63,160 nucleotides of DNA, from positions 1 through 63,160 of the forward strand of contig JAGQYO010000014.1 of NCBI GenBank assembly GCA_020435995.1, read 5' to 3'. Below the pieces are notes generated by a model. That model did no database searches, was not told where the DNA came from, and was given only the letters and a program-made list of their open reading frames with translations. This document shows positions 13,931-52,026 of this stretch, one piece after another (the first letter of the stretch is position 1; every line of letters begins with the position of its first letter). Source of the DNA: Flavobacteriales bacterium (GTDB lineage: Bacteria > Bacteroidota > Bacteroidia > Flavobacteriales_G > Salibacteraceae). A program made the translations under genes and the position numbers.

Positions 13931-13966
13931 TCGGGGCGTACCTCTAGGATATAACTCATCGTACTA

Positions 13967-16154: not shown

Positions 16155-16158
16155 GAGT

Positions 16159-35700: not shown

Positions 35701-35937
35701 TCGAAATACTGATGAATCGCCCTTTAGCAAATGGCCATCTACCATGATGGTTCCTGCATTACTTATTCTATTATTAAGGGTAGCATTTGCTGGATCATGT
35801 ACATAATAACCCCGTAAGAAAAGTTTATCGCTCGTGCTGGATAACTTAATCCTAGTCCCTTTGTTGATCATAAGCTCCTGAGCATAGCCAGAAAAAGAAA
35901 GGATTAAAAGGGATAATATGTATATCAGTTTTTTCAT
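26734..35937 (-). CDS. 3067-residue PKD/Cys-repeat surface protein with T9SS type A tail
   Basis: After a signal peptide (~1-19) comes a ~350-residue N-terminal domain of beta type with no family I know. About fifteen PKD-like modules follow (W-x-FGDG with a Cys in the first strand). Then sixteen ~78-residue modules follow the pattern VNLGxDxxxC, LDAGNxGxTYxWS, SGTYxVxVTDxxGC. One more PKD module (WFYDFGDNSTSNNRDP) precedes the type A sorting tail (AKVYPNPNMGSFTFEM, FDMRGVVM, LSNGIYFLKI). Each of the sixteen modules usually holds two Cys, which could form a disulfide. It has the scale and modular pattern of a filamentous surface adhesin. It lies 4 bp after the collar-domain gene and 9 bp before the next giant gene. 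No catalytic motif was seen. Confidence 0.92.
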   Translation of the reverse strand: MKKLIYILSLLILSFSGYAQELMINKGTRIKLSSTSDKLFLRGYYVHDPANATLNNRISNAGTIMVDGHLLKGDSSVFRNTDDDTAKLGKIIFVNTTAPFDIAKSMRQYVPVGLDTPKPKSRIWHPGFNAAILEIDLGSDTLWSDYYSKYNAEVINELRFLGGALYKRGTLQLYRNANGSDEYRGRIMNETETNRVMGANRWGTEKTANVELLWKNGSRGGHDTTNIGISSDQGFSTTGFVQLNRFLAGSPDSNNIVRSINRSFSVEYNGTSPASTTGYEFKYFSAENDSNTLQKAQLFKTNILPFSNSIGQWTGIKSGKSVQNKVFNTTSLNAGTSATMVVMGDCPSPPNINILLRDTSYCIDTVAANNDFLELNCLHNLSKEVNVTFQWYKDGEPIPDSVNSTIRLKSSGGSTDAGGSGLYSVIATNSTNGCISTDTIQVYLNPKPVADFTIPGVGNPNCEGTKHVFINNSSISKGGIIKSSWQPDAFFGGTPWYDSTGTANGEYTYIKNTGTINYCVRLNVFSDSGCTGLKVKYFDVYTKPNVSIGTPNGTGICEDAQLVLTNTSTTTDGANNQLSSSTWYHGDGSSNVYSSGQVSQSSSHSYTNPSNIAQTKTVKLHVVTNKGCKDSATVNITVHPKPVATPAINLHAGARLYKVCQDTGIGFSYTNAFNDVGVQWNFINAATNTANSAKRTLNSPTGVVFQSAGTFTPKVVLTSSQNCKDSFNTAPITIYPLPVAGFTVLDDTICQGVATQFTNSSTSPSGTNTYLWNYGNGATSNSTSPSYTYPLSGAYSPSLMATTPFACKDTFSYPIRIKPNPSTSFTVSNKCEDSTVSFNSTTVAIPNGSLFQPTWHWDFKLLSTNANYISQRSAEDPNVDYASYGSYSPSLYAVAEQCTSATVSRPLVIHANPVADFSSSDNCGGDTAVFVNGSSLAQGAYTYQWNMGDGTFYNNQATVKHVFSSTQNYNVRLTATSDSNCIAHKQIAYRVFDIPTAQFDTTNATVCNLIASQFTNQSSMKRGSALKYVWKFGDGHDTNTVNPSYIYQNPNSYNVTLLALPVDTTNICRDSITKTVIIHPNPNVAFGNIDNCLNDTFTFSNQSTIAYTNMTKHFWDYGDGAKDTTTTPLTRFHRYTNPGYYTVSLKVLSDKACLIEKKDTVRNFARPKANFDTSLASVCIFKTSQFTNSSVMSDASNMLYNWDFFYNNQTDTAKDPSFKYPSTKAQYNVKLNVRPADTTNVCRDSVTKTIYLHDLPDSSFAVTRDTFCFGQTIYFVKTKAQGLHNYQWHFGDGLADSTNVTYVSKEYASAGPYTATMKAKSNFGCTSDSIVNLYVIPLPRADYTITPDSVCLGDTMQFVNTGDSIASYYVWNFADGSTPDTNSSRFYYPKKVYSTPNSYYTQLSSVRSFQGGKFTCISKKNNWAVVHPNPVINFAASRNLGNGKAFSFSNTSYLPSGTLGTLYYKWKYGNGDSSSNSNAYHTYVYSNLASYQVKLKATSTFGCSTEDSITIKAVSTPKSSFGISDSSVCGAKTINFSNSSNNAQSFKWFFGDNATDTVLAPAHTYQNPGKYLVQLVAIDTNGYRDTSKKLIVVNAVPSAQFTASSVCAKSNVLFSNTSKILSQEPLKYRWYFGNGDTSILSAPTTTYDTGGVKSIILVATSDSGCVDSSNINLTINHNPVIDFDSSLARACVGDSSILNSIISISAGSIASRWWRIQNDPTTYLANQVKRPLGNAGTYTVTLAAQSNLGCKDSISKLVHVDVLPNISLADSQRTCGSTLNLNSGIAGATYAWSTSASTQAITVSSDGIYTVTVTLPSGCKASKTTKIYLNTTVSPNLGADFAVCGDTVLDAKNPGGTYVWNNSATTRTIPITTSGTYSVVVTDQNACVGYDTIQVTRKNPPVVYLGADTIECAGTPITLDAGSGGDKYLWSTSSSNSAISVNSPGTYTVAVTDTTANCTTRDTINVTFRYSPPVNLGPDKTVCGSQSILLNAGTVANVNYLWSNATTNQTLSTSTSGTYWAKLTDQVKGCSRTDTVIVNINPIPTVSLGNARTVCAGNSASIIAGSQAGNKYNWSTNDTTPSITAASSGTYSVTVTDSNQCSNFSSVQMTVLQVPQVAFGNDTSICSGKSLLLKGSSTGSNVTWSTNQNQAFLSVNSSGTYWATATNGSCVSSDTIQVAFKSLPVVNLGTVSSICGAGNLVLDAGAFGGKFKWQDNDTNRTKTVNNSGLYSVQVTDSNGCIGSASLNVTVHGSPSPQLANKSVCSGVPVFLNAGNPGNTYSWSNSSTNQAISTTTAGTYKVTITNSGGCSIVDSSIVTVASPPTVALGGNQTICSGQQVALNALNPGSTYKWSNNDTTQILNVTSSGYYSVTVTNANGCTADDALTVSVHGYPAVNLGQDKNGCIGDTLNLQSLVTYPSGYNYLWTGGATTPVLKAATTGSYVLTVTNNFSCSKTDTIGVTISSPPSVSLGPDNIVCKDTILNAGNAGATYLWNNNATSQQVTINQSGTYVVQVSIGGCSSKDTIALTINPLPVVNLGADQTTCISHPPTLDAGNLGATFLWNTAASSKTIVPSTSGKYWSKVTNSFGCNSTDTVSITLTSGPIDSLGPDINICWDNQPITLNAGNTGSSYKWNTGAQSKTISVSSSAVFSVTVTDASNCADTAYIDVTLKPTPVVNFGSDRSVCDSIQLDAKNAGSTYLWSDASTNRLFKIRQSGKYWAAVTNTQSCVGSDTVQITISDGPVVNLGNDTVVCSGNALIYKANQNDVSILWSNNSIADTFAIRAAGEYWLKLTDSSGCYNTDTVSVSLGTLPNVNLGRDTTLCSNQLFPLQIDSGYAKYSWTGPNNFVDSSRSVSAKTSGVYKVDVLSKDGCRAMDSISLTLTHDTVKARFLMPSSAQIGDSVTMVDLSSSNVTSWFYDFGDNSTSNNRDPIKIYILEDTFKITLTVSNGTCLDRAQKSIVIKKELKTKPKVEEELVPDDIITILNAKVYPNPNMGSFTFEMNLSDEDDFVIYFFDMRGVVMSQERYQHLSEMTKNYHFGNLSNGIYFLKIITASQQTQTFKIVVND

Positions 35938-36892: not shown

Positions 36893-37801
36893 TTATTTGA
36901 TTCTCATAATAAAAGCTAAGGTGTAATAAGGAGGACGGTTTTCATGATTAGCTCCGTTAGAGGCTACTTGGGCCGTTCCGGTTCCTCCAGAATATTGTAT
37001 GGTAACGCCAGTGTAGGCACTGTAAGAGTTCGATTGTGAGAAATTAAAGTTTACCAAACCGCCCTCTGTTTCTGCATCATCGTCATCACTTCTTTCTCCG
37101 TTGGCCGCTTGCCTATCATATTGATGGTAGTGGCCCGGGTCATTAACCCCATGTGTATGTCTTGGGATTTGGGTTAAATCTAAAGAAACACTTGTTGCTC
37201 CTCCCACTTTACCGCCTTTTTTGGTTGAACCACCTGCAGTACTTAAATTCCCAGGCTCATTATATTCAGAATTTGTTGAATCGAAGCCGACAATAAACTG
37301 ACCTCTTAGGTCGGGAACCGTAAAATGATTGGTATGAGCTCCGCCGCCACCCATACACAATACGTAGCCATCGGGAGGCACTCTTCCGCTCCACATTAAA
37401 ATTGCTCCAAGGGGCACGATGCCATTGCCATCAACTGCATTTACAGTGGTTGCATCAAGTTGTTTTATGGATACAGCGTTTTTCGTAGCCCTTATCCTAC
37501 CTTTATTTGTTGTTAATTGTCCATGCTCCTTTTCGAATGGAGTCATAGAGTGCCATTTCGTATTATAAAACACATACACTTCATTGCTATCGGTATTGTA
37601 AACCATGGTTCCATTAGGGGGAATGGGGGACAAGGTCATGGCATCAATAGATCCTGTATTATGAGTTGGAATAATAAGCCCTTTGTCTGGTGAGAATAAA
37701 TGGAGTACTGCCCTAGCATTGGGGTTATCTGTCCCTAAGCCTACCTGAGCAAAAATTGAAGTAGTAAAAAACAAAATTGATAATGTAAATAATTGTTTCA
37801 T
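36893..37801 (-). CDS. Secreted phage-tail-collar-domain protein, second paralogue
   Basis: The 302-residue protein has signal peptide MKQLFTLSILFFTTSIFAQ and then the same plan as its neighbours: VGLGTDNPNARAVLHLFS, KGLIIPTHNTGSIDAM and GTMVYNTDSNEVYVFYNTKW. It ends in a collar-like domain: GAILMWSGRVPPDGYVLC, FTVPDLRGQFIVGFD, IPRHTHGVNDPGHYHQY and ENRPPYYTLAFIMRIK. The tip loops differ most between the copies (here an acidic SDDDDAETEGG stretch), which fits divergence in binding. The linker (EKEHGQLTTNKGRIRATKNA) is shared with paralogue 1, so these two are the closer pair. It starts 10 bp after paralogue 1. Trimer formation and ligand binding are inferred from phage homologues. Confidence 0.88.
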   Translation of the reverse strand: MKQLFTLSILFFTTSIFAQVGLGTDNPNARAVLHLFSPDKGLIIPTHNTGSIDAMTLSPIPPNGTMVYNTDSNEVYVFYNTKWHSMTPFEKEHGQLTTNKGRIRATKNAVSIKQLDATTVNAVDGNGIVPLGAILMWSGRVPPDGYVLCMGGGGAHTNHFTVPDLRGQFIVGFDSTNSEYNEPGNLSTAGGSTKKGGKVGGATSVSLDLTQIPRHTHGVNDPGHYHQYDRQAANGERSDDDDAETEGGLVNFNFSQSNSYSAYTGVTIQYSGGTGTAQVASNGANHENRPPYYTLAFIMRIK

Positions 37802-37811
37802 AGGTATTTAT

Positions 37812-38729
37812 TTATTGAACTCTCATTATAAAAGCAAGTGTGTAATACGGAGGGAGATTGTTGTGAGCTTTTCCATGCCCGCCACCAACATTGGTTGTAA
37901 AGAAATGACTATGAGCGCCAGTACCTGTAGTTGTTTCTGTCAAAAGATTACTAATTCTAGCAAGGTTATCCCAATAACTGCCTCCTGCTTCTGCCCAACC
38001 TCCGCAACGACGATATGAATGCGTGTGATTACCATCGGAATTTGTATTTCCATTATGAGAATGGGGTGGAATTGTATTAATATCTAGTGTAACAGAATCT
38101 TGTCCACCAAAGTCTCCAGCAGAATATACGGGTGTGGCAATACCGCCACCAGCTTTATACAAAGCATGTTGGCTGTAAAAGCCAGTTTGATCAAATCGCG
38201 TATCCGAAGAATTATATCCCACAATAAATTTTCCGGTGAGATTTGGAGTAGGATGTCCATTTGCTGTTTGTCCATTACAGAGTGCCCAACCGCTTGGAAT
38301 TGTGGTTCCACTCCACATGATAATGCCACCAATTGGGGTGATACCATTTCCATTGAACGTATTTACAGTTGTTGCATCCAGCGATTTGACTTCGAGCGCA
38401 TTGGTTGTTGCCTTAATCCTTCCTTTATTAGGCGCGGCTTGGCCGTGTTCTTTTTCTAAGGGTGTGAGTGAGTGCCATTTTGTGCCGAAATAAACATAAA
38501 CTTCATTGCTGTCGATATTGAAAACCATGGTACCGTTGCTTATAGGTCCTAGGGTCATAGCGTCTACTTCCGCCGTGGTTAAAGTAGGTATGATAAGCCC
38601 TTTGTTACTGGACTGAAGATGTAAAACGGCGCTCGAGCTGGGGTTATCAGTACCTACTCCTACTTGGGCGATTAGATTCAACGAAACGAGACTAACCGCG
38701 AATGAAACGATTAATAAACTATTTTTCAT
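37812..38729 (-). CDS. Secreted phage-tail-collar-domain protein, first paralogue
   Basis: I start this protein at 38729 (MKNSLLIVSFAVSLVSLNLI, cleaved after AQ), giving 305 residues. The frame is open further upstream, but the added residues would precede the signal peptide. This ATG overlaps the end of the FN3-like gene by 11 nt, fitting translational coupling. The layout is VGVGTDNPSSSAVLHLQSS, KGLIIPTLTTAEVDAM, GTMVFNIDSNEVYVYFGTKW, then the collar-like part GGIIMWSGTTIPSGWALCNG, TPNLTGKFIVGYN, IPPHSHNGNTNSDGNHTHSY and NLPPYYTLAFIMRVQ. His pairs in HSH and HTH are placed as in metal-binding tail-fibre tips. It is the first of three tandem copies. Confidence 0.87.
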   Translation of the reverse strand: MKNSLLIVSFAVSLVSLNLIAQVGVGTDNPSSSAVLHLQSSNKGLIIPTLTTAEVDAMTLGPISNGTMVFNIDSNEVYVYFGTKWHSLTPLEKEHGQAAPNKGRIKATTNALEVKSLDATTVNTFNGNGITPIGGIIMWSGTTIPSGWALCNGQTANGHPTPNLTGKFIVGYNSSDTRFDQTGFYSQHALYKAGGGIATPVYSAGDFGGQDSVTLDINTIPPHSHNGNTNSDGNHTHSYRRCGGWAEAGGSYWDNLARISNLLTETTTGTGAHSHFFTTNVGGGHGKAHNNLPPYYTLAFIMRVQ

Positions 38730-40749
38730 CGTCTGGAATTTTAAATTCTTTATTTTCTGATTTAACAATGCCCCCATCTGAGGCATACATTCTTACTTGG
38801 TATTGATAAACAAGGCCGCTTTTTACACTTTTGTCTTTGTATTTTCCTTCTTCCAGTGTTCCCGTTAAGGGCATAAAGTTATTGTCACCTTCTTTTCTGA
38901 AAATTACATAGCCCAGTACATGTTCAGGGTCATTTGCCTTCCATTTGAGGTCAACTGTTTTGGCACCTCTCATTTTTGCACTAAAAGATTTGAGTTTGAT
39001 ACCATCTGAAACTGATTTTCCAGGAACTAATGCTGAAAATCCGTTGGACCAATCGGAGATGTTTCGAGAACTATCTAAAGCTTGTAAAAAATAGGTGTAT
39101 TTGGTTCCAGGGCTGATGGCCTCATCGGAATATTTGAGTTCTGATTTTAGAAAAGGTGCGAGATTTAATATGTTTTTTGGTGCGAGGCTATCTGTTCCGT
39201 CTACTCTAAATAAATTATAGCCATAGATGTCATCATCCTTGTTAGCCTCCCATTCGATGACGATTTCATTTCCATTTTCTGCTAGAGTCACATTTCGAAT
39301 AAACGGTGATACAGGTGGCAAGTGGTCTGGAAGCCGCGCAACAGAAAAGGTGGAAAACACACTTCGATTATAACTTGTGTCAACAGCTTCCACCACATAT
39401 CGGAAGGCAGTTTTTACATTCTTGTGAAGTTCTTCTATATAATTGGTTTCTTTCACTGGAACGTCATTGATCAGTGTATAGTGTTCAGGATGAAATTCTT
39501 CGCCTTCAATTACCTTGTAAATCACGTATCCCATAAGGTCGTTATCGGGGCTAGGGTCCCAACGGAGCATCACCTTTCCTGAGTCGGTTTCAGTTTTTAG
39601 GTTGGTAGGTGGCTTCGGCGGAATGACGTCTCTCACGTGAGCGATAATGGCACCTGAATAAGCCTCATTGCCAGCCAGATCGACAGCAGCCACTACGTAA
39701 TAATACTCACCGGGCTTGTTTACCACATCCCAATAAAATTCCTTGTCTGGGGGTATTACTTCTTGGTTCATTTTTATTTTATTGGTAATGGTATCGGTAA
39801 ATCGGTAGAGATTAAAGCCGTATCGGTCATCGTCAAGAACCGACATCCACGTTAGGTGCACCTTCAAGGTATCTTGGTCAAATTTTAAATTAAAGGGCTC
39901 CATCGGAGGATCAAAATCTTTGGCTGCGGCGGGAATAGCTCCGGTTCCCTTTCCTTCTTCGCCAAAGTAATCCATTACCTTAAGCTCGTAGGTATAGTCG
40001 GTTTCTTTATCTATCGCATAGTCTATATAATTGGGATGTTTGCCATTTTCATGCATTAAGTCTTCGTCTGTAACAACTACTGGCTCTTTGGTGAGTAATT
40101 CGGTTTCTCCGGTGCTCATGTTGGTTTTGTAAATGAGTACACCGTAGTATGAAAGTTTATCAATTTTCCACTTAATGTCCACATGCTTCTTTTTCCTATC
40201 TAGTTCTACATTCTGAGGTGGTGGTGCCTGAACATAAGGGCCGGCAACAATGGAAGTATCTGCGATTTCAATTTCACTGCCGTTGTACATGGCGGTAAGC
40301 CGGTATTTATATACCTCTCCCGATGTAATTTGCTCATCTAGATAGGCAAGTCCGATAGCTCGAGCAAAATCGTTGTTTTTTACCGCCCTTATGAGCAAGA
40401 AAAGCCTAGCCATTCCTTCTTGAAAAGCTTCAAAACTAGGTTCCTGATCGATCATTTTAAAAATAGGTTCTGCAAGGTTATCTGCACTCGTAATTTCAGC
40501 AGGTAACTCTGATGGTTTTATAAAAGGCGTGGCATTTAGTTTTTGCCAATTGCCGTTTCCATCATCTTTATAAAGGTTATATCCTTCTTTGTAGAGTACT
40601 TTATTGGTTATCCATTTTAGCTCTACCAATCCAGTGGATGTGTTTCTCACAAAAAGATAACCCTCATGCCCTTCTTGTTGTGCTTTGGCAAAAAACGGAA
40701 TTAGTAGAATTCCTGCCAACATGAAACGATATGTAATGTTCTTTATCAA
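38719..40749 (-). CDS. Secreted six-module fibronectin type III-like protein
   Basis: The 676-residue protein has a signal peptide (residues ~1-23: MLAGILLIPFFAKAQ preceded by basic MIKNITYRF) and about six ~95-residue FN3-like modules. Each starts like PPxxxxLxxxxxxxxVxLxW and contains DDDxYGYNLYR or a close variant (YGFNLYRFTD, MGYVIYKVIE, YGYNLFRVDG, LGYVIFRKEG). I see no sorting tail or lipobox. The likely start is a TTG at 40749 that overlaps the upstream stop codon (TTGA); the ATG at residue 10 would leave a signal peptide without basic residues. The next gene overlaps its 3' end by 11 nt. Such modules usually serve as spacers or binding surfaces; in this run it may be a periplasmic or surface scaffold between the giant protein and the collar proteins. 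Confidence 0.88.
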   Translation of the reverse strand: MIKNITYRFMLAGILLIPFFAKAQQEGHEGYLFVRNTSTGLVELKWITNKVLYKEGYNLYKDDGNGNWQKLNATPFIKPSELPAEITSADNLAEPIFKMIDQEPSFEAFQEGMARLFLLIRAVKNNDFARAIGLAYLDEQITSGEVYKYRLTAMYNGSEIEIADTSIVAGPYVQAPPPQNVELDRKKKHVDIKWKIDKLSYYGVLIYKTNMSTGETELLTKEPVVVTDEDLMHENGKHPNYIDYAIDKETDYTYELKVMDYFGEEGKGTGAIPAAAKDFDPPMEPFNLKFDQDTLKVHLTWMSVLDDDRYGFNLYRFTDTITNKIKMNQEVIPPDKEFYWDVVNKPGEYYYVVAAVDLAGNEAYSGAIIAHVRDVIPPKPPTNLKTETDSGKVMLRWDPSPDNDLMGYVIYKVIEGEEFHPEHYTLINDVPVKETNYIEELHKNVKTAFRYVVEAVDTSYNRSVFSTFSVARLPDHLPPVSPFIRNVTLAENGNEIVIEWEANKDDDIYGYNLFRVDGTDSLAPKNILNLAPFLKSELKYSDEAISPGTKYTYFLQALDSSRNISDWSNGFSALVPGKSVSDGIKLKSFSAKMRGAKTVDLKWKANDPEHVLGYVIFRKEGDNNFMPLTGTLEEGKYKDKSVKSGLVYQYQVRMYASDGGIVKSENKEFKIPDDEK

Positions 40750-43700
40750 AGTGAAGATTCAAAATTGTAGCTAAAGCTTTTTCCAAACCCGCAGACTCTT
40801 ACGTGTCCATCAAGGTTTCCTTTTAGGGTTTCTGCAACGAAATCGGCCTTCAGATTACCATTTAACTGAGCTGAGGCCACTTCAAAGGAGCCTGAATAAA
40901 CCAAAAAGTCATAATTTACGGTTAGGCTGGCACCCATACTTACTGCAATTTCGGCGGAAAGTAACTTAAATGGATCTAATTCGGCTGCGGCTCCTACAGC
41001 TAGATTCATATGTGCCTTTGCCTGAATATTTCCCCAGCTTGGCCCCACAGTTTCGTCAAATCTGAAACCGCCTTTAGCGTAGAATTCTAACTTTTTAGGA
41101 TCGTAATAGAAATAACCTTCGCCACCAAATCCAGAGCAAGTAGGGTACAATTCAATCAATTTGGTTTTTTCACCAATCATGATTTTCCAAGCTCCTTTTT
41201 TGGATTCCACCATCATGGATCCATTGATACAAATTGGCTTTGCACCGCTCACGGCTGCATTTACTAGTAGATGCTCCTTAGCACTGCTGTAATACATGGA
41301 TACTTTTCCTTTAACAGCGCCTTCGCCTTTGGTGATTTTATCGCCCAAATATTTAGGTCCGCTCATAGAAGGGGGAGCAGATCCTCCTATGTACTCAGGA
41401 TCTTTAGCTGTTCCGCCAGATCCGCCGAGTAGGCTTTTCTTGATGTCATCGGCCATCGTGCCATATACCTTGAACGACTTTTTGCCTGCGTCTACAAATA
41501 GATCATCACTACCCTTGGTATAACCTACCGTGAGGTCACCTCCTGAAGAACCTGAGAATTCCAGTTTACCCATGGAGGTTTCTTCGGCAACTACTTTGGC
41601 AGATTTTCCTTTACCGGCTTCTACAGAAATTTTATACGACTGATACTCGGAACGAACACCGTAGCCAATATTGCCTTTGAACAAGGCCAATGACATATCT
41701 GACCTAGAGTATTTAATAAGATCTTGAGAGCCGAAGGTGAGCGTTTGTGTGCCATCTGTTGCCATGAAGGTTTTGTCGCTCCCAATTTTTGCTTCGTACT
41801 TACCATCTTTTACAGCTAGGTTATATGATTTATCGAATGTGATAGATCGAGTTCCTTCTGAAACGGTCACAATGTTGTCACCACCAATACCTGCTTTCAA
41901 ATTTCCATTGGTGTAGCTAGCTTGTTCTTTGTTTACTTCGAGTTTGTGGGTGCCGTAAGTAATGCCTAACTTGGCATCTTTGTCGATTTTCAAACTATTT
42001 TGGCCATAAATAATTTCAGCCTCTTGCTTGCTCATTTTTAGTGAATTACTACCATCAGATAAGGCAATGGAAGGATTCGAAGCATCTGTATTTAATGTCA
42101 AAGTTTTTGCACCTTCTTTTAATTCTACTTTATTCCCTTCAAAAGCAAAACTTCTGGTGCCATCACTAAAATTCAAAGATTTAGAAGTACTGAAGCCAGC
42201 AGTGTATTTGTCATACTTAAAATCAAGGCCTGTTTTACTTGCCGTAATGGCTGTGGTGGTTCCATCTTTATACTGCACCTCTTGGTCGTTGGTAATAATA
42301 AATGATTTGCTTTGGTCACTCAGTTTTAGAAGTTGGTCGCCGCCTAAATTAACATTGTAGGTGCCATCTGAATAGCTTGCGGCGTCCTTACTTATATTCA
42401 AATCATACTTATCGTATTTCACTTGCAGTTTGTTGTCGGTCACAAACTTCAGAGAGTTATTGCCTACTATTAATGAAGCTTCTGCTTTACTTACTTTAAG
42501 TATGTTGGTACCGTTTTTAAGTTCAATTGAAGGGTTTGTTTCGCTGGCTTCGACAGCTAGTGAATTGGAACCATCAGTAATTTCCATTTTAGAACCTGCA
42601 AATGCCATAGTGCGCGTGCCATCACTGAAAGAAAGGGATTTTGAAGCGTTGTAAGAAGCTACATAAGAATCGTATTTAAAATCTAATTCGGTTTTGCTCA
42701 ACTTGATGGAAGTGGTGGTTCCGCTGGTAAATTCGACACCTTGGTCGTTAGTTACCTTAAACGTTTTGTTGTTATCACTAAGCTTGAGTAATTGATCACC
42801 ACCGAGTGCTACCGTGTAAGTACCATCTGTATAGTTGGCCTTATCCTTACTTACGTCGAGGGTGTACTTATCATACTTTACTTCAAGCTTGTTGTCTTTT
42901 ACAAATTTGAGTGAGTTGCTACCCACTACTAATGAAGCTTCAGTTTTGTTCACCTTCATCACGTTGGTTCCATTTTCCAACTCAATAGAAGGGTTTGTTT
43001 CGTTGGCATCAACAGCTAGTTTGTTCGAACCATCGGTAATTTCCATTTTAGAACCTGCAAATGCCATCGTGCGTGTGCCATCACTAAAAGAAAGTGATTT
43101 CGAAGCATTATAAGAGGCAACGTAGGAGTCGTATTTTACATCCAATCCATCTGCACTTGCCTTAAAGAGCTGAGCCGTGCCGTTCGCGTATTCTATCTTT
43201 TTGTCGCTATCCAATTTTATACTCTTGGTTCCGTCCTTCATGTACAATTCGGTGGCACTCACATAAGCTTCTCGAGATTGATCTTTGTAAGAAAGTTTTT
43301 TGGCTGTGCCATCAAGTTCCAAAGTGTAGCCATCAAATGAAACATCTAGGTTGTCTTTGCTCATTTTCAATACGCGAGCTGTTCCATCAGCCAGTTCTAT
43401 ACTTTTATCTGAGTTGAGTTTAGCGTATTTGGTGTTGTATTGAACAATATAATTGCCAGAAGCGTCTTTTTCAGCCTTGTATACATTTCCATTATACTTG
43501 AATTCTGCACTTCCATTGTAACTGTTATCAAACGAAACCTCGGCATAGGTGGAGGCATCGCCCACTTTGAGGTATTTCTCGGTTCCGCTTACAGTAAACT
43601 CTACCGATTTGCCATTATAGGTTCCGTTAAAAGTTCCCTGACCATTGGTGAAATTGAGTGCTACTTGGGTATTGTTTTCATAGAATTCAACTGAAGTACC

Positions 43701-46700
43701 AACTTTCGCCTTTATCGTAGTGGAGCCCGAAACGAAGTTGAATTCTTTGCTTACACTATTAACTTCAAGAGAGAGCCCGCTTTCGGTGTATTTTATTTTT
43801 CCATCGTTGTTGACTACGTCTCCGTCTATTTCTAGCTCTTTTCCTCCCGAATTTACTTTTAGGGTTGCCTCTCCATTTATATTTCCAGCTACATCAATTA
43901 ACAGTGATGATGTATTCAAATAATATTTTGCCGCAGAAGTACTCACCGATGCAAAAACCGAATCACTTCCGGAGCTAAAGCCAAAACTTCCACTTAGGTT
44001 GCCTACATCACCAGTTAAGTACAGTTTTTTTCCGCTTTTGGCGATTTCAAATGAACCTTTTTTGGCAGCAACATCACCGTCTAAGAGGACATATTCGCCT
44101 CCGTTTGTGTATGCGAATTTTCCTTTACCTGCTTTAGTGGCCTCAAGGCCAAGTGCAACACCGCTAAATGCAGTAGCAATTTCTAATTTATTGGTTGAGA
44201 TGTTTGCGAAAACTGAATCGCTTCCATTTCTGTATCCGGCATAACCAGTACCTGCAGTTTTATCGGCCCCACCTCTAAATATTTTGCCTTGGGTATCGAG
44301 GTAGAAATCGCCGCTTCCAGCCGCCTTAGCTCCTTGAAGTTTTAGTTCAAACCCACTTTTTTTAATTTCTAAGTTTCCAGTTCCCGCCTTAGATAATGCT
44401 AAAAAGTAACGCTCGTTGGAAGCAGGAATAAGTTCGAGAGAACCTGTACCATCAGCAATGTTGGCATCAAGATTAAACTCCTTCGAGCCGTCAACTAATT
44501 TTAGGATTCCCTTGCCAGCCTCCGATTGAGCATTTACGAGTTTGCTACCAAGAGCTAGATAAAACACGCCTTTCGAATTGCTTCCATCTACCAGCGTATA
44601 AATACTGTCTTGGTTGTTTTTGAAACCGAAGTAGCCACTCTTAGCAGATTTGTTGGCCCCAGCATAAAGCGAAAGCGTGCTGTTTTTGAATATGGCATCA
44701 CCTTGTCCAGCTTTGTTTATATAAAATGAAATGGCGTTGTTGTTGAAGTTCGAGTTGAGTTGGAGTTCTGTAGAAGATGGAATAGCAACTAATATGGAAT
44801 CACTTCCATTTCTGTAGCCAGCATAACCAGTTCCAGCTGTTTTGTCGGCGCCACCTCTAAATATTTTTCCTTGGGTATCGAGGTAGAAATCGCCGCTTCC
44901 AGCCGTTTTTGCACCTTGAAGTTTTAATTCAAAACCACTCTTTTTGATTTGAAGGTTTCCAGTTCCAGCCTTGCTAAGTGCTAAAAAGTATCGTTCGTTG
45001 GAAGAAGGGATGAGTTCAAGTGAACCAGTACCCTCGGCAATGTTGGCATCAAGGTTAAACTCCTTAGCCCCATCTGCTAATTTTAAGCTTCCTTTTCCTG
45101 CCTCAGATTGAGCATTAACTAATTTGCTTCCAAAAGATAGGTAAAATACGCCCTTCGATTTGCTGCCATCCACGAGTGTATAAATGCTGTCTTGGTTGTT
45201 TTTGAACCCGAAGTAGCCACTCTTGGCTATTTTATTGGCTCCAGCATAAAGTGAAAGAGTGCTGTTTTTGAATACGGCATCACCTTGTCCAGCTTTGTTT
45301 ATATAAAATGAAATGGCATTGTTGCTGAAGTTCGAGTTGAGTTGGAGTTCTGTAGAAGATGGAATAGCAACTAATATTGAATCACTTCCATTTCTGTAGC
45401 CAGCATAACCAGTTCCAGCGGTTTTATTGGCACCCCCTCTGAATATTTTTCCCTGTGTATCGAGATAAAAATCACCACTTCCTGCGGTTTTTGCTCCCTG
45501 AAGCCTCAACTCAAAATTGCTTCTTTTGATTTCTAGGTTTCCTGTCCCAGCTTTGCTCAAGGCCAGATAGTAACGTTCGTTGGCGCCTGGAAGAAGCTCC
45601 AATGAACCAGTTCCTTCGGTAATGTTGGCCAAGAGATTAAATTCTTTTGATCCGTCTTTGAGTTGGAGTTTGCCATCGCCAGAAGTGGCTTCGGCGTTGA
45701 TCAATTTACTACCTAATGCCAAGTAGAATTGCCCCTTGGTGTTGGTGCCATCCACAAAAGTGTATAAACTGTCTTGGTTATTTTTAAATCCAAAGTAGCC
45801 ACTCTTTGCGGATTTGTTAGCTCCGGCATATAAGCTTATGCTGCTGTTTTTAAACATGGCATTGCCCTGTCCTGCTTTGTTGAGGTAAAAACTAAGGGCA
45901 TTGTTGCTAAAGTTTGAGTTGAGTTGAAGCTCGGTAGAAGAAGGAACGGAAACAAAAATGGAATCGCTTCCATTGCGATAACCTGCATATCCGGTAGATG
46001 CTGTTTTATTCGCTCCTCCTCTTAGCGTTATGCCACTTGTATTGAGGTAAAAATCGCCGCTGCCAGCAGTTTTGTCGGCTGATAATGAAAGATTTAGAGT
46101 GCTGTTTTGAATAAGTAAGCTTCCTTTGCCCACCTTATCCAATTCGAGCATATATTTTTCTGTGCTGGAGGGGATGATTTCAAGTTTACCTGATCCGTTT
46201 ACCCGATTGGCTTCTAGGGCGTATTTCATTGAGCCCTTCGAATATGAAATTTTGCCTCCGCTTGGATTGGCAAATGCATCTACTACATGTCCGTCAATAT
46301 CGGTGTACAATTGGCCTTGGCTTTTGGATTTATCAACGGCTGCAAATAAGGAATCCGAATTTATTTTGAAACCAATAGCACCACTTCCTGTGCTTTTATC
46401 GCCAGAAAGATGCATGTTGAAGTTGTCATATTTGACATCGAATTGGGCAGAGCCAGCGGTATTAATTTTCGCAAGTAATTCTTTGGTAGCATCGTATTTC
46501 AGGAACAAACTTCCTTCACCAGTAGTTTTATTTCCAGCTAGTTTCATTTGTTTAGAGTCGTAGCCTAAGTTCAAACTAGCTGCCTTTTGTATGTTGTCGA
46601 ATGAAGCTCCCATTTGAAAAGAGGATAATGCTAAATCAAATGAACCTTTGTTGCTTCCGTCGAATGCTAAGTCGAATTTGTCGCTTCCTTTTTTAAGGGT

Positions 46701-49700
46701 TAATGAAGCTGCTCCTGCGGTATTTCCCTTCATTTTTATTTCGTCGCTACCACTTGTATAGAAAACGGTTGCTTCGGGGGTTGAAGAAATATCACCTAAG
46801 AATCCGACCTCAGTTCCGCCCGCTACATAGGTCATCCCAGCAATAGTCCCGCTTCCTCTAAGTTTGAGGTTGTTGCTTCCCACTGGCACCGTCACATTAA
46901 TTTCTCCAATTTGCTTAGCCACTTGCTTGGCCGCTTCTTTTGCAGCAGCTTCTGCTGCTTTTTTCTTTAAGGCACTTGCTCCAGATTTGTCTCTTCCCGT
47001 TGCGTTAAATACAGCTATATCTCCTTCTACTTGTACAGTGAAATCACCCTTCACAACTTCAATTTCAGCGCCTATATCGCTTTTAAAGAGCTTTCCTTGT
47101 TGATTAGGATCGATGAGCTGCGTGTAAATGCCCGCTCCAAATTCAACGTCTTTGTTGATCTCAAATTCTTTGGTGGTTAGGTTTTGTTTCATGTGACGGT
47201 AAACTCGGCCTTCGAGTGCTACAATATTGAAGAAGTTAAAGACCTTAATACCCTGTCCTTCTGTGTCATTAAAGTAGGCATCGAAATACCAATATTTTAA
47301 ATTGTCCTTCGTATTGCCGAGAATCATATTGGCGCCCATGTCAATTTTAGCTGGAACTAACAACGAACCGTTTAATCCTCCCTTAAAACACGTTCCCCAA
47401 ACAGGATCATCTTGACGCACTTCCAAATAACCTTCAATTTTTACAATGGAAGAAACAAATTTTATTTCCATGGGCTCAAAAGCGAATTGGTCTTTCTTTT
47501 TATCTGCCTTGATTGCAACTGGAATTTCGGTGGTAGCCGAGCCATAATCACCCGCAGCTAGGTCAACTCCCTCGGCTACATTAGTAACGCCCAGTGTACT
47601 TGATATATCAATTCTTGGTGGGCCGCCATCACCAGAAGCATCACTCCCGAGGGGCATAGAGCCACTGTAGCTTAGTGCATAATTTCCTTTGATTAACCCT
47701 GCACCTAGTTTGTCTATGTTAATGGTCCAGCTGTCAAATTTTCCCATTTTTTGTTGAGGAAGTGCATAGGATCCGTTTCGTTTGCCATAGCCGATAAACA
47801 TGTCGCCGTAGATCCTGAAATTATTTACGGACGAGAACGAAACTTTAAGTTTTGGAATTTCAAGGTCTATGGTGCAGTCCAAGCGCTCGTTGTCAGCAAA
47901 CACCGCTCTTTTGATCGTTAAATTCATCAATTGATCACCACCGTCTGGGTTGTAAACTAATTTATAGCCATCAAACGATTCATTGAATGAGCCCGTTTGA
48001 AAGCCATCATCATTAATGGGAATTGTAAAATCAAACGGAGTGCTTTGCGATATAAAAGGGATGAGCACGTTGCCAGTCACCTTTGCCTTAGTAATGCTGT
48101 TTTCTACATCGATTTCAAAATCGTATAATGTTGCTGGAAATTGATTGAATTTGGCATCTTCACTTGCAGTAATCTTTCGATGCACTTTGGCTTGGAGACC
48201 TTTGGCATCAATCCACATTTTGACGGCGTTATTGCTGGTCAAATTATAGGTATGGGTTAGTTTATTCTCAAAAATGAGCTGTTTTGAATTGTCTACATCG
48301 GTGTAATACTCTACATCAAAATCTTCGTAGTAAAGGCCCTTCCATTCTTTGCTCGAGCTGTGTCTCGCGGGAGATTGTGTTTCGGATAGGTCAAGAATCC
48401 ACTTTTTGGGAACTGCGTAGATGTTGGCTTTGGATACAAGCGGAAGCTCATTATTTCTGGTGAATTTGGTCGACATATTAAAGTAAAAGAGGTCTCTTTT
48501 GTCCTCGAATTCGAATGCGATACGCTTATTGTCATTGCTTTTTACGTTGGTTGGCGCATAAATTTCGCCGTATAACCTAAATCGAAAAACGTTAGAACTT
48601 ATGAGAAAATCGGCGACATCTTTAAAGAGATGCAACCTAAAGTTTAATGGATCCATCAATTCGTAATCGTTGCTCGCATCCAGCGTAGCCGACCCAATTA
48701 ATTTCTTTTCTGAATAGACCAAATAAGTGTAATTCGAAGTAACCACACCTTTGGAACCTCCTTTTATCGCATGAGGCAAATCCCATGTAACCTTGCCGCC
48801 GAGATAATATTTTTGGGTCGATAGTTTAACGCTATCAGGTTGAAAATAGGCACTACCGTTGTCCTTAGATTCTGGTTTGATTTCAATAGGGTCTGGTTTG
48901 TTTACAAACGGAGCGATAATTTCTCCTGCGGCCAAAACATAATCGCTACCTGATCTTACTAATTTAATGTCCTTAAACTCAAACATCAGAGCGTCATTTC
49001 CATACGGAACCTTTCCTCTTCCCGATAGTTTGTTTAAATCTTTGTTATAGGTTTTAATGACCTGAATTTGCTCATTTCCAGCAATGAAGTAGTCCATTAA
49101 AGGCGGACCTGTAAATGTCTGGGCTTTTGACTTGGCGAATATGACCCCATTAAACTCGGCTGTGACTTGCCAAGCATATTCTTCCATTTTTTCGAGTTTT
49201 TCAGAGAGGGTATGAATTGCATCTTGGCTCGAAGTAGTTTCAAGGGATGTGTAGTTGTAAACTGAAGTATTCTTGTCGAGCGCATCCACGGCGGTTTTAC
49301 CTTCCAGTTTTACAATTTTCATGTGATACTTAAAGCTCATGTTTTGTTCAAGGTTATCTGGAGCTCCCCATGAAAAAGCGATGTTTTCTTTTGATGAGAA
49401 TCCACCCTGATCTTCAGGTTTTTTAAGGTCAATGTTACCGTTGGTGCTCATGCCATACCTAAACCAATGCACTTCGCTGATACCATCGTTTTTAAAGGAG
49501 GATCTACCTAATTTATCCTTCGCCTGCACGGTGAAAGCGTATCTTTTACCAATGGTTAAAAGTGTTGCTGCCACATCATATATAAATGTGGGATTTTGAA
49601 CCGCTATGGGAGATTCATAGATTTTAAGCGCAAGGTTATTAGCCACGGCTGTTTTTGGATTTGTTTTGGGGTCTGTGATTTCATATAATTTTAGAATGTA

Positions 49701-50354
49701 TTCTACATTGCTATAGCCTCCAGGAGGAATACTTCGCAATTGCCACTGAAACACAATATTTTGAGGGCTTTTTGGGGTTTCTGTGCTTGCATCTTTTGGG
49801 CTTAGAACCAGAGGTGGCTCTTGTAAGGTGATTACTGCAAAAGCACAGCTTATATTGGATACAGTTCTTCCTGAATTGTATTCCCTCACTTCGATACAGA
49901 AATTGTAGTTGCCCTCGGGAAGCATTCCTGTTCGTTGTAAATCGGCGACGGTGGTTCCCGTAATATCTAAGTTGTTATAATCGAAATAGGTAGCTAAATC
50001 CGACCCTGATATGTTTTTAAGTTGTCCTGGCAATAATGTTATTCTCTGCGTAGGCTTAAAGTTCGCCTTGGACTGCAACTTAACACTGCTAGAATTAATT
50101 TTCAAATTGAGATATACATCTAAGCTTGGTTCTGTAAGGTCATTAAACAATAGGTTAACCTGTAGGTTAGTGGAGTTGGCCGCATAATAGTCACTAATAA
50201 ATGGAGTATAGGGAAGGCCCATTATTGCGGTGTTGGTTACGGGAGGGCGCTGCTGAGCAAATGATGCGAATCCAAGCAACAGCAAACCTGCTAGCAACAT
50301 CACCCTCAGTGAAGAGATGATTTTCAATGCGTTATGTCTAAAAGTTAAACCCAT
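40746..50354 (-). CDS. Giant ~3200-residue secreted repeat protein with TANFOR-like N-terminus
   Basis: Starting at the ATG at 50354 (MGLTFRHNALKIISSLRVML, then a hydrophobic run to FAQ) gives 3202 residues. Residues ~30-270 resemble the TANFOR N-terminal region known from Tannerella and Cytophaga giants: PYTPFISDYYAANS, LFNDLTEPSLDVYLNLKI and GNYNFCIEVRE; Ig/FN3-like segments follow. A middle part (~400-1150) has long beta-rich domains. From ~1170 to 2870 the protein is made of ~22-residue G-x-G-x-L-x-L units, organised in 194-residue tandem repeats (~1430-2045) and three 153-residue repeats (~2407-2866). The C-terminal ~330 residues hold two Cys in CSGFGGEGYFYYDP and VRVCGFGKS. The end shows no sorting tail I recognise. 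It overlaps the barrel gene by 17 nt and the FN3 gene by 4 nt. Confidence 0.9.
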   Translation of the reverse strand: MGLTFRHNALKIISSLRVMLLAGLLLLGFASFAQQRPPVTNTAIMGLPYTPFISDYYAANSTNLQVNLLFNDLTEPSLDVYLNLKINSSSVKLQSKANFKPTQRITLLPGQLKNISGSDLATYFDYNNLDITGTTVADLQRTGMLPEGNYNFCIEVREYNSGRTVSNISCAFAVITLQEPPLVLSPKDASTETPKSPQNIVFQWQLRSIPPGGYSNVEYILKLYEITDPKTNPKTAVANNLALKIYESPIAVQNPTFIYDVAATLLTIGKRYAFTVQAKDKLGRSSFKNDGISEVHWFRYGMSTNGNIDLKKPEDQGGFSSKENIAFSWGAPDNLEQNMSFKYHMKIVKLEGKTAVDALDKNTSVYNYTSLETTSSQDAIHTLSEKLEKMEEYAWQVTAEFNGVIFAKSKAQTFTGPPLMDYFIAGNEQIQVIKTYNKDLNKLSGRGKVPYGNDALMFEFKDIKLVRSGSDYVLAAGEIIAPFVNKPDPIEIKPESKDNGSAYFQPDSVKLSTQKYYLGGKVTWDLPHAIKGGSKGVVTSNYTYLVYSEKKLIGSATLDASNDYELMDPLNFRLHLFKDVADFLISSNVFRFRLYGEIYAPTNVKSNDNKRIAFEFEDKRDLFYFNMSTKFTRNNELPLVSKANIYAVPKKWILDLSETQSPARHSSSKEWKGLYYEDFDVEYYTDVDNSKQLIFENKLTHTYNLTSNNAVKMWIDAKGLQAKVHRKITASEDAKFNQFPATLYDFEIDVENSITKAKVTGNVLIPFISQSTPFDFTIPINDDGFQTGSFNESFDGYKLVYNPDGGDQLMNLTIKRAVFADNERLDCTIDLEIPKLKVSFSSVNNFRIYGDMFIGYGKRNGSYALPQQKMGKFDSWTINIDKLGAGLIKGNYALSYSGSMPLGSDASGDGGPPRIDISSTLGVTNVAEGVDLAAGDYGSATTEIPVAIKADKKKDQFAFEPMEIKFVSSIVKIEGYLEVRQDDPVWGTCFKGGLNGSLLVPAKIDMGANMILGNTKDNLKYWYFDAYFNDTEGQGIKVFNFFNIVALEGRVYRHMKQNLTTKEFEINKDVEFGAGIYTQLIDPNQQGKLFKSDIGAEIEVVKGDFTVQVEGDIAVFNATGRDKSGASALKKKAAEAAAKEAAKQVAKQIGEINVTVPVGSNNLKLRGSGTIAGMTYVAGGTEVGFLGDISSTPEATVFYTSGSDEIKMKGNTAGAASLTLKKGSDKFDLAFDGSNKGSFDLALSSFQMGASFDNIQKAASLNLGYDSKQMKLAGNKTTGEGSLFLKYDATKELLAKINTAGSAQFDVKYDNFNMHLSGDKSTGSGAIGFKINSDSLFAAVDKSKSQGQLYTDIDGHVVDAFANPSGGKISYSKGSMKYALEANRVNGSGKLEIIPSSTEKYMLELDKVGKGSLLIQNSTLNLSLSADKTAGSGDFYLNTSGITLRGGANKTASTGYAGYRNGSDSIFVSVPSSTELQLNSNFSNNALSFYLNKAGQGNAMFKNSSISLYAGANKSAKSGYFGFKNNQDSLYTFVDGTNTKGQFYLALGSKLINAEATSGDGKLQLKDGSKEFNLLANITEGTGSLELLPGANERYYLALSKAGTGNLEIKRSNFELRLQGAKTAGSGDFYLDTQGKIFRGGANKTAGTGYAGYRNGSDSILVAIPSSTELQLNSNFSNNAISFYINKAGQGDAVFKNSTLSLYAGANKIAKSGYFGFKNNQDSIYTLVDGSKSKGVFYLSFGSKLVNAQSEAGKGSLKLADGAKEFNLDANIAEGTGSLELIPSSNERYFLALSKAGTGNLQIKKSGFELKLQGAKTAGSGDFYLDTQGKIFRGGADKTAGTGYAGYRNGSDSILVAIPSSTELQLNSNFNNNAISFYINKAGQGDAIFKNSTLSLYAGANKSAKSGYFGFKNNQDSIYTLVDGSNSKGVFYLALGSKLVNAQSEAGKGILKLVDGSKEFNLDANIADGTGSLELIPASNERYFLALSKAGTGNLEIKKSGFELKLQGAKAAGSGDFYLDTQGKIFRGGADKTAGTGYAGYRNGSDSVFANISTNKLEIATAFSGVALGLEATKAGKGKFAYTNGGEYVLLDGDVAAKKGSFEIAKSGKKLYLTGDVGNLSGSFGFSSGSDSVFASVSTSAAKYYLNTSSLLIDVAGNINGEATLKVNSGGKELEIDGDVVNNDGKIKYTESGLSLEVNSVSKEFNFVSGSTTIKAKVGTSVEFYENNTQVALNFTNGQGTFNGTYNGKSVEFTVSGTEKYLKVGDASTYAEVSFDNSYNGSAEFKYNGNVYKAEKDASGNYIVQYNTKYAKLNSDKSIELADGTARVLKMSKDNLDVSFDGYTLELDGTAKKLSYKDQSREAYVSATELYMKDGTKSIKLDSDKKIEYANGTAQLFKASADGLDVKYDSYVASYNASKSLSFSDGTRTMAFAGSKMEITDGSNKLAVDANETNPSIELENGTNVMKVNKTEASLVVGSNSLKFVKDNKLEVKYDKYTLDVSKDKANYTDGTYTVALGGDQLLKLSDNNKTFKVTNDQGVEFTSGTTTSIKLSKTELDFKYDSYVASYNASKSLSFSDGTRTMAFAGSKMEITDGSNSLAVEASETNPSIELKNGTNILKVSKAEASLIVGNNSLKFVTDNKLQVKYDKYDLNISKDAASYSDGTYNVNLGGDQLLKLSDQSKSFIITNDQEVQYKDGTTTAITASKTGLDFKYDKYTAGFSTSKSLNFSDGTRSFAFEGNKVELKEGAKTLTLNTDASNPSIALSDGSNSLKMSKQEAEIIYGQNSLKIDKDAKLGITYGTHKLEVNKEQASYTNGNLKAGIGGDNIVTVSEGTRSITFDKSYNLAVKDGKYEAKIGSDKTFMATDGTQTLTFGSQDLIKYSRSDMSLALFKGNIGYGVRSEYQSYKISVEAGKGKSAKVVAEETSMGKLEFSGSSGGDLTVGYTKGSDDLFVDAGKKSFKVYGTMADDIKKSLLGGSGGTAKDPEYIGGSAPPSMSGPKYLGDKITKGEGAVKGKVSMYYSSAKEHLLVNAAVSGAKPICINGSMMVESKKGAWKIMIGEKTKLIELYPTCSGFGGEGYFYYDPKKLEFYAKGGFRFDETVGPSWGNIQAKAHMNLAVGAAAELDPFKLLSAEIAVSMGASLTVNYDFLVYSGSFEVASAQLNGNLKADFVAETLKGNLDGHVRVCGFGKSFSYNFESSL
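41757..43133 (-). repeat. Three tandem 459-nt repeats inside the giant gene
   Basis: A codon for Tyr in a Y-D-(S/K)-Y motif recurs at 43131-43133, 42672-42674 and 42213-42215, exactly 459 nt (153 residues) apart. Copies 1 and 2 are close at DNA level, sharing SKSLSFSDGTRTMAFAGSKM and the following ITDGSN; copy 3 is more diverged (SKSLNFSDGTRSFAFEG). Each copy itself contains several DGT/DGS beta-turn units. In-frame length means copy number can change without breaking the gene. Confidence 0.9.
44210..46070 (-). repeat. 582-nt tandem repeats (about 3.2 copies) inside the giant gene
   Basis: The sequence around CTTCCATTTCTGTAGCCAGC (or a close variant) recurs at 44219, 44801, 45383 and 45965, a constant spacing of 582 nt (194 residues). 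Copies 2 and 3, in gene order, are nearly identical over long stretches. Phrases such as SGDFYLDTQGKIFRGG, AGTGYAGYRNGSDS, KSGYFGFKNNQDS and NERYFLALSKAGTG occur in each copy. The near identity points to recent duplication or gene conversion. This block is also a risk point for short-read misassembly. Confidence 0.92.
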
Positions 50355-52026
50355 ACGATAATCCAAATTGAGTTTCACTTCCCCGTACATTTCCTGCGGA
50401 TTTTCTTGATAAATACCTGCCATCTACACGGATAGAATTGTATTTATCTACACGGTAGTTTATTCCATATACAAACGAAACGTTGTTGTTGAGGTAGGAT
50501 GTATTTAAAAAATTGTCGATATAGCTAACGGCAAGGTTGGTTCCTATTTTATCCTTAAAAAATTGTTTGTTGATTCCTAAAGTTGGTCCGTAAGCTTCAG
50601 TTAAGTTTCCTGGGCTCACAAAGCGGTTATAATTGATGGCAGAAGTAAAAGTGACTTTGAGTTTTGGAAACCCGAGGTTGTAAGCTAAATACGTATTATA
50701 AAATTCAGATCCATCTGAAACCGATAACACACTATTGTCTTGAATGGCATCCGCTTTTTGATAATTTCCTGCTACATTAACCGCATGGGATATGTTTTCG
50801 TTACCTGTGCTGTAAGAAGTGAGCAAGCCGTAATTATTGGTCAATTGAAGAAACTTGATTGTATCCTGAATATTGGCCGCAGATGGGGTGTTTGAAGAAC
50901 GGAAATTTGAATAATTACCCGCTACCATTATTTTTTTGGTAAGTTGGTAGGATGCATTTACAGAACCAATCAAGCGGTTGTCTGAGGTGAGCTGCTCACC
51001 GCTTAAATTATTTCTCTGAACTCCAAAACTCCCTCCCAGGGTCATTTTCTTTTTTAATAATGTAGTGCCTAAGTTAAAGGTGTAATTCTCGAGGTCATTA
51101 TTTAAGTAGATGGCTCCCATGCTTCTGTAGTTAGGCCCAACTCTCCTGTAGGTGAACCCAAGATTGGTTCCTTTGAGGTTGTAAGTCAAGGTTCCTGTTC
51201 CGGCACCGTTAATTACCGTAGAAGAGTTTGGGGTATAAAAAACACCAAAATTATTGGCGTATCCATAAGTGTTTTCTCCTAAAGCTGGAAGCGATACATC
51301 ATAAGTATATGCGCTTTGAGCAAACTCTCCTTGAAAATTTAATTTGGGAGTTAGATTGAGGTTTGTGGTAAGCCCCCACACAAAATTTTCTTGGGCATTT
51401 AATTGGAGGGTATCAATGTCTATTGAATTGGGGTTGTCTTTAGCGCGAACTAAATTCAAATTTATTTCTCCAATACTTAATTTATAACCTACTTGCCCAG
51501 CATAGCCCCATCTTTCGTAAGCAGGTTCATTTGATGCCACGGCAGAACCATCAGGTAAAGGAATGGCCTTGGTCAACCTACCATACATAGCCTTGCCCTT
51601 CCATTTTGAATTTGAAGGTTCTATTTCCACACCAGCGCCTAGAAAAATAAGACCTCCCATGGTAAACTCACTGAATTGCATACTTCGAAATCCAAGATGG
51701 CCGGTTATCCATTTGTATTTAGGGCTAATTCCAAATTGATTGAAGGGTTGTGTGTATTCATTGTTCTGAGAAGTAAACGTGGCGGTGAACGGAATAGCTA
51801 CACTATATAGGTTGATGTTGAGGTTTGCGTTTAATACCCAAAAGTAGGGTGGCCTTTGTTCGTTTATATTTTGAGCGCCATACCAAACCTGAGAAAACGA
51901 CGCCCCTCCATTGACGGTTAGGGGCTTTACTTGACTTAAATCACTTAGATCTTGCCCAAACGAATTTTGAATGACAACCAGAGCCATAACTAACGTAGCG
52001 TAGGATAAGTGGAGCTTTAAGTTCAA
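50338..52026 (-). CDS. Outer-membrane beta-barrel protein, first gene of the nine-gene run
   Basis: The 562-residue protein has a signal peptide (MNLKLHLSYATLVMALVVIQ, cleaved after FGQ) and then continuous amphipathic strands with aromatic belts. Examples are INLYSVAIPFTATFTS, KWITGHLGFRSMQFSEF, FVWGLTTNLNLTPKLNFQGE and the closing strand GSETQFGLSYGFNF, which ends in Phe as barrels recognised by the Bam complex do. About 24-28 strands would fit. It resembles uncharacterised Bacteroidota barrels and not PorP or Sov. Its last 17 nt are shared with the start of the giant repeat gene, so the two are translationally coupled. It may export or anchor that protein. The promoter for the run should lie in the 107 bp to the divergent gene at 52134, but I cannot place boxes with confidence. 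Confidence 0.85.
   Translation of the reverse strand: MNLKLHLSYATLVMALVVIQNSFGQDLSDLSQVKPLTVNGGASFSQVWYGAQNINEQRPPYFWVLNANLNINLYSVAIPFTATFTSQNNEYTQPFNQFGISPKYKWITGHLGFRSMQFSEFTMGGLIFLGAGVEIEPSNSKWKGKAMYGRLTKAIPLPDGSAVASNEPAYERWGYAGQVGYKLSIGEINLNLVRAKDNPNSIDIDTLQLNAQENFVWGLTTNLNLTPKLNFQGEFAQSAYTYDVSLPALGENTYGYANNFGVFYTPNSSTVINGAGTGTLTYNLKGTNLGFTYRRVGPNYRSMGAIYLNNDLENYTFNLGTTLLKKKMTLGGSFGVQRNNLSGEQLTSDNRLIGSVNASYQLTKKIMVAGNYSNFRSSNTPSAANIQDTIKFLQLTNNYGLLTSYSTGNENISHAVNVAGNYQKADAIQDNSVLSVSDGSEFYNTYLAYNLGFPKLKVTFTSAINYNRFVSPGNLTEAYGPTLGINKQFFKDKIGTNLAVSYIDNFLNTSYLNNNVSFVYGINYRVDKYNSIRVDGRYLSRKSAGNVRGSETQFGLSYGFNF

Follow-up and report, generated by a model that had tools for sequence, protein, structure and literature searches.

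Related giant proteins of Bacteroidota carry two tandem repeat arrays, A and B, that are unlike in sequence, and comparison of 14 of these proteins indicates that the two arrays are coupled in length and do not vary independently. The longest arrays measured are found in the window (the whole stretch of 63,160 nt analysed here), in a minus-strand gene for a protein of about 3200 residues (Table 1). We consider it probable that the repeat region is a finger in a loop of a TANFOR-like envelope protein, with A running out and B running back to give a two-sheet spike.

Table 1. Features of the window at and near the giant gene, with residue numbers referring to the 3225-aa open frame.
Feature	Position (nt)	Strand	Basis or remark
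Giant protein gene	40746..50354	-	Open frame; starts at an in-frame ATG (residue 24 of 3225)
Signal-peptide-like N terminus, residues 24-57	50253..50354	-	Read by eye: charged residues at the start, then a hydrophobic stretch and A-Q
Conserved N-terminal module, residues 58-1140	47004..50252	-	Weak TANFOR match at residues 70-192
Array A, residues 1179-2238	43710..46889	-	22-aa sub-period; putative outgoing sheet; placed by alignment anchors and periods
194-aa long units in A, residues 1316-2096	44136..46478	-	About 4.0 copies
Tip region linking A to B, residues 2238-2323	43455..43712	-	Site of the pentapeptide insert in L054 and L057
Array B, residues 2323-2899	41727..43457	-	Sub-period about 17; putative returning sheet
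153-aa long units in B, residues 2388-2878	41790..43262	-	About 3.2 copies
Conserved C-terminal domain, residues 3015-3225	40749..41381	-	11-12 long predicted strands; invariant cysteines in alignment
Upstream partner, 562 aa, barrel-like (C-terminal phenylalanine)	50338..52026	-	By eye; homologous to 20 other neighbours
Downstream partner, 676 aa, FN3-like	38719..40749	-	4-nt overlap with the giant gene; 19 homologues among other neighbours
Three collar-domain-type genes	35942-36889, 36893-37801, 37812-38786	-	Third: Pfam Collar, Gp10_C; other two by eye
Protein of 3067 aa bearing a T9SS type A sorting domain	26734..35937	-	TIGR04183
T9SS type B cargo	21073-26724	-	TIGR04131
PorP/SprF family protein	19407-21062	-	TIGR03519

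The open frame extends from nt 40746 to 50423 and specifies 3225 residues. The initial annotation placed the gene start at nt 50354, which holds, as this is an in-frame ATG before the signal-peptide-like stretch. Searches of the giant with TIGR04183 and TIGR04131 returned no T9SS sorting domain at E ≤ 1, which weighs against the display at the cell surface presumed for it. Pfam assigned no toxin family to the protein at the family cut-offs. Across 12 aligned members of the family the C-terminal domain is conserved. A Pfam hit to Phage_TTP_17 (E 3e-4, below the gathering score, spanning 27 residues within the repeats) was set aside as chance.

The long periods of both arrays are exact in the DNA. 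Direct repeats of 300, 232 and 137 nt (three copies each) recur at a spacing of 582 nt, and one of 282 nt (two copies) recurs at 459 nt. Self-comparison of the protein gave peaks at offsets of 194, 388 and 582 and of 153 and 306 residues, with scores up to 209, compared with maxima of 43–47 for three locally shuffled sequences. The nested units of 194 and 153 residues reported in the initial annotation are thus confirmed. Its 22-residue unit, said to build both arrays, was retained for the 194-aa array, where that sub-period is clear, and dropped for the 153-aa array, which has a sub-period of about 17 (8–9 and 25 are also seen). The 582-nt units had also been called nearly identical, an overstatement: adjacent copies in the window share 71–81% DNA identity and match exactly over at most 52 nt in a row, and are therefore not near-identical over their full length, while single stretches reach 84–92%. 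Over all proteins measured, adjacent copies show 64–81% DNA identity, i.e., they are 19–36% apart, and because they have diverged to this degree an assembly artefact is an unlikely source of the repeats. Within the genome, a 1001-bp piece of the arrays (nt 43000–44000) is present on this contig alone. The arrays are absent from the output of Tandem Repeats Finder, whose longest period, 500, is shorter than the 582-nt unit.

Array lengths were measured from the first strand to the tip (A) and from after the tip to the base (B) in 14 proteins, using anchors from one alignment that may be off by some residues. The A/B values, in residues, are 430/275 (L052), 475/269 (L063), 560/341 (L050, L051 and L059), 580/343 (G017b), 627/384 (L058, L060 and L064), 719–721/469–471 (L054, L055 and L057), 781/499 (L061) and 1059/576 (the window). 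Independent contrasts on a tree of the N-terminal module gave r = 0.975 with a slope of 0.648; there were 13 contrasts, A and B had the same sign in 10 of the 11 that were non-zero, and none of 2000 permutations gave as high a value. Without the window, r is 0.997 and the slope 0.752. A protein measured later and outside these statistics, L139, has the same lengths as G017b (580/343). The initial annotation had taken the arrays as separate units, a view that the co-variation of their lengths contradicts. From the periods and a model of L052 (one model, pLDDT 60, pTM 0.43), a strand takes up about 10.8 aa in A and about 8.4 aa in B, so that the addition of one B strand for every A strand should give a slope of 0.78. 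By the same measure, the paired long units of A and B hold closely similar numbers of strands: 18.0/18.2 for units of 194/153 aa, 14.3/13.7 for 154/115 aa and 7.9/8.0 for 85/67 aa.

Close relatives of unequal length differ by whole units, in both arrays. L061 and L064 (from genomes G060 and G132) belong to the same genus and are 93.5% identical in the shared N-terminal part; the former has three long units in each array and the latter two in each, as do L058 and L060. A direct search showed that G132 lacks just two stretches of the query, one per array. The unit trees of this pair are mosaic and do not separate gain from loss. In most groups of relatives, array lengths are constant, which speaks against the frequent length change by recombination that had been proposed at the outset. 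Three species of one genus have equal array lengths in proteins of 2451, 2451 and 2453 aa that are 71–78% identical, and the lengths given above are the same in L058, L060 and L064 and nearly so in L054, L055 and L057. All relatives searched for the copy-number comparison come from outside the window's own genus.

The correspondence is one of increments. Equality of total strand number proved inexact, since most proteins have about 11–13 more strands in A than in B (counted with anchors that do not take in the tip region), and the coupling claim is therefore one of equal increments. L052 lies off the rule by about 5 strands, by arithmetic on the measured lengths. The window is the outlier, with 576 aa in B where about 693 are predicted; discounting one 194-aa unit of A brings the prediction to 557. 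It thus has one unit more in A than in B and fits only with this discount, so the coupling is not absolute. Either a mismatch of one unit is tolerated, or a recent, identical B unit was collapsed in the 207-contig assembly; a fourth B unit could have been lost in this way because a very recent identical copy would collapse.

Relatives without arrays show where the repeat region sits. In all four that have a BLAST match to the C-terminal domain (G014, L140, G071 and L141) the flanks are joined directly, the N-terminal module leading into the C-terminal domain with about 10–28 aa between the aligned parts; in G014, the residues aligned to positions 1153 and 3065 of the window's protein are 1509 and 1537. 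The array region is therefore an insert, and its two ends are probably close together. BLAST found no C-terminal match in two other array-less proteins, G012 and L142, the second of which has a weak profile match. In two array-less giants, L045 and L140, a part of the N-terminal module (window residues of about 477–1153) aligns also to a second, later stretch, which may be a duplicate.

In two relatives the middle of the repeat region carries an insert. L054 and L057 have a pentapeptide-repeat domain between A and B, and the lengths of their arrays are as in L055, where no such insert was seen. A free-standing protein with the same type of pentapeptide repeat is encoded at nt 13967–14536 (minus strand) of the window. 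Counted in strands from the tip, the long-unit blocks occupy 4–49 in A and 9–54 in B of L061, and 5–35 and 10–40 in L058, and block heights from the midpoint are similar in L061, L058, L060 and L064. The blocks of the g10 species are mirrored less well (A 1–19, B 15–38). From the coupled lengths, the joined flanks, the insert at the midpoint and the block heights we infer a spike in which A leads out and B leads back.

An AlphaFold2 model of L052 residues 1120–2219 (10 sequences; pLDDT 60, pTM 0.43) shows A as a meander whose 8-residue strands are linked by 2-residue turns and 4-residue loops (block pLDDT about 53–83), and B as mostly 6-residue strands (about 55–80). The best structural matches of A are single-layer antiparallel sheets, namely the CPAP G-box, OspA, MORN and ApoB sheets (Z about 10–12, rmsd 4.7–9.3). 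By hand count, 32 of the 34 strands of A in L052 alternate between hydrophobic and polar residues as one hydrophobic face requires; in B, clean alternation was read in about the outer third alone. A lag-2 test that uses the sequence only, applied to three proteins, returned z values of 4.5, 5.7 and 4.9 for A and of 3.3, 0.8 and 2.1 for B, the value of 0.8 belonging to L058. The N-terminal module is positive as well (z about 3), so this alternation is not specific to the arrays. Of the beta-solenoid or stacked-hairpin rod suggested initially, the repeat-built beta structure stands and a rod is likely, and in place of the parallel coils of a solenoid the strand pattern of the model, at modest confidence, and its best matches suggest antiparallel hairpins.

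Modelling of window residues 2900–3225 (13 sequences; pLDDT 67, pTM 0.53) folded the last ~190 residues into 11–12 long strands. Nearly all matches to this model are outer-membrane barrels, with rmsd values of about 5–10, and Foldseek returned no match at E ≤ 0.001. Given the high rmsd and this Foldseek result, a membrane barrel is a possibility and not a result. The likeness to barrels such as CymA, OprO, OmpU and the autotransporter domains lies in the long antiparallel strands, whereas the high rmsd, the pTM of 0.53 and the invariant cysteines in the alignment of the giant's domain set it apart. The type V autotransporter barrels EspP and BrkA scored Z 9.5–9.7 at rmsd 8–10 and also had no Foldseek match at E ≤ 0.001.

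In the arrangement that we favour, the finger would be inserted between the N-terminal module and the C-terminal domain. Array A would lead outward as an unbroken antiparallel beta-meander, hydrophobic on one face; at the tip the chain would turn, and B would return along A as a second meander, strand for strand, so that both ends of the two-sheet spike lie at its base. The number of strands in both arrays would then set the length of the spike, and a block duplicated in one array would need a match in the other. The protein would thus act as a rod of set length, built from a double array and not as a one-way stalk. The two sheets would presumably pack face to face, in antiparallel (mirror) order. 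The spike may be anchored by the barrel-like partner or by the C-terminal domain, and from its neighbours and shape we would guess at a role in contact or adhesion. Whether this amounts to a new architecture, in which two beta-meander arrays of unlike sequence are the sheets of one filament, constrained in register and extended by matched duplications of equal strand number, seems to us an evenly balanced question.

Other explanations of the paired arrays deserve consideration. A variable-length stalk of the periscope kind, projecting in one direction, would have A and B as successive rod segments that carry an adhesive end, with recombination varying the length. It is an unlikely reading: it accommodates the exact in-frame units of 582 and 459 nt, the one close pair (L061/L064) that differs by whole units and the matches to single-layer sheets able to form rods, but the copies have diverged to 64–81% in DNA, lengths are fixed in most groups, and neither the joint change of A and B nor the direct joining of flanks in array-less relatives is predicted by it. 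The one-way stalk of Periscope Proteins (SasG, Rib, Sgo_0707) consists of domains that are highly identical and fold individually; these proteins share with the giant a repeat-built rod that can differ in length by whole units (PMC8201768, PMC9704523). By comparison, the copies of the giant are diverged and their sub-units are strands of one continuous predicted sheet, its length is mostly fixed, and its two unlike arrays appear to run out and back (PMC8201768, PMC9704523). The long, highly similar DNA repeats expected of a periscope gene are absent (64–81%, runs of at most 52 nt, stretches up to 92%), repeat number varies between L061 (3/3) and L064 (2/2) and is fixed in the other groups, and in place of individually folding repeats the L052 model has a continuous meander, at modest confidence.

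A ruler outside the protein might also make the arrays equal, if A and B both packed along a third partner such as the FN3 or collar protein, a lipid or a glycan. The conserved partner genes, the ApoB-like sheet matches of A and the predicted hydrophobic face of its sheet would suit this, yet a lipid would not fix length, and the FN3 partner keeps nearly the same size (640–704 aa in most of the loci read) against a more than two-fold range in the arrays, so it is not a ruler by length; we rate such a partner as quite unlikely. Much the same doubt applies to the length correlation being a by-product of duplication-prone genomes or loci that expand both arrays while these are structurally uncoupled. 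That both arrays are rich in repeats and that the window departs from the rule by one unit fit such a process, but it would not be expected to give long units with equal strand counts in three lineages, or a slope close to the 1:1 strand ratio. Least probable, and by a reading of the same data very unlikely, is a beta-sheet that spirals into a closed shell or cocoon, as in the teneurin or RHS/YD shells, with a role related to the TANFOR toxins. It draws on the 22-residue hairpin unit, the TANFOR-like N terminus and Foldseek matches to teneurins with E values down to 8e-7; these matches have, however, TM-scores of at most 0.08, Pfam found no toxin domain, and a shell has no obvious need for equal increments in two arrays.

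The giant scores 13.9 bits against the TANFOR model (TIGR02542), and its N-terminal module alone 15.8, both far below the curated cut-off of 67; six of nine aligned relatives give a weak N-terminal match at E ≤ 0.1, the best at 2e-5. The TANFOR polymorphic toxins of Bacteroidetes (Jana et al. 2020, PMC7073777) resemble the giant through this weak match in a large, secreted-looking protein and through a neighbourhood of T9SS and PKD/FN3 genes, represented here by the T9SS type A and B cargo, PorP/SprF and the fn3 of L058. They differ from it in having variable toxin domains where the giant has a conserved C-terminal domain preceded by two beta arrays (PMC7073777). Two defining features of these toxins, a score at the cut-off and a toxin domain, were looked for in the giant and not found.

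In fold, array A of the L052 model is matched best by OspA, the CPAP G-box, MORN repeats and the ApoB100 belt, and no sequence relation between these single-layer sheet proteins and the giant was found. We know of no second, co-varying array in any of these sheets. Similarly, the listings of an open-licence library on TANFOR, periscope, single-layer sheet and giant Bacteroidetes proteins and on coordinated duplication gave one paper on TANFOR toxins and no description of coupled arrays.

The giant gene lies within a conserved set. The partner genes overlap it at both its ends. The upstream, barrel-like partner matches no Pfam family at its cut-off, while fn3 was found in the downstream partner of L058. 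Profiles built from five seeds each matched 21 of 21 barrel-like and 20 of 20 FN3 neighbours, an Ignavibacteria record included, but every locus had been chosen because an open reading frame of suitable size lay next to the giant, and each set contained its own five seeds, so these counts show homology and not frequency. Genes of the collar type come next in many loci, and SprA is encoded in the same genome as the window. In the Ignavibacteria record (L112), a distant giant occurs with homologs of the barrel-like and FN3 partners in a different gene order. Near the operon of the window, and on the opposite strand (nt 53743–55062, plus), is a gene for a protein with HTTM and vitamin-K-dependent gamma-carboxylase lumenal domains.

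Among 100 related genomes, that of the window included, the N-terminal part was matched in 21 and the C-terminal part in 6. With a profile of the C-terminal domain, matches were obtained in 6 of the 395 genomes searched from the class, in 4 of 46 from one family and in 3 of 392 from the phylum; the giant family is therefore rare. Scanning of genome contigs gave 68 loci, 14 of which were chosen, together with four known earlier, for the later locus comparison. Loci that match the whole N-terminal module are mostly metagenome-assembled genomes titled Flavobacteriales, Crocinitomicaceae or Bacteroidetes, together with Fulvivirga sp. M361, and many of the remaining loci match the first ~300 residues alone. 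Phage records contained nothing that matched a 384-aa piece covering the tip and some of B, and a megablast search for a plasmid origin gave no match for the gene. The giant of L056 is divided between overlapping frames at 10013-14290 and 14217-18257, by a frameshift or a sequencing error.

If the out-and-back spike is real, its length would be a discrete, double-locked trait, and the midpoint of the gene would be the tip of the spike and a slot for modules such as pentapeptide helices. Two arrays in one protein that count the same strands would amount to a structural rule read from sequence alone, and would offer a test case for register in growing beta structures and for matched double changes in one gene. 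The gene set itself (barrel-like protein, giant, FN3 and collar proteins), found in Bacteroidota and in one Ignavibacteria record, represents TANFOR-like proteins without a recognisable toxin, and bears on the general role of the TANFOR region and of its partner genes.

Two other regions of the window may be mentioned. A cyanophycin-type cluster at nt 9122–13818 specifies a cyanophycin-synthase-like protein, a peptidase of family S51 (cyanophycinase-like) and, by eye, an isoaspartyl-peptidase-like protein. At nt 61913–61987, an 8-bp repeat of 7.4 copies lies just after an upstream start of a small, secreted-looking open reading frame (nt 61437–61889, minus strand); as assembled here, translation from that start meets a stop after 30 codons, and steps of 8 bp could therefore switch the frame (phase variation).
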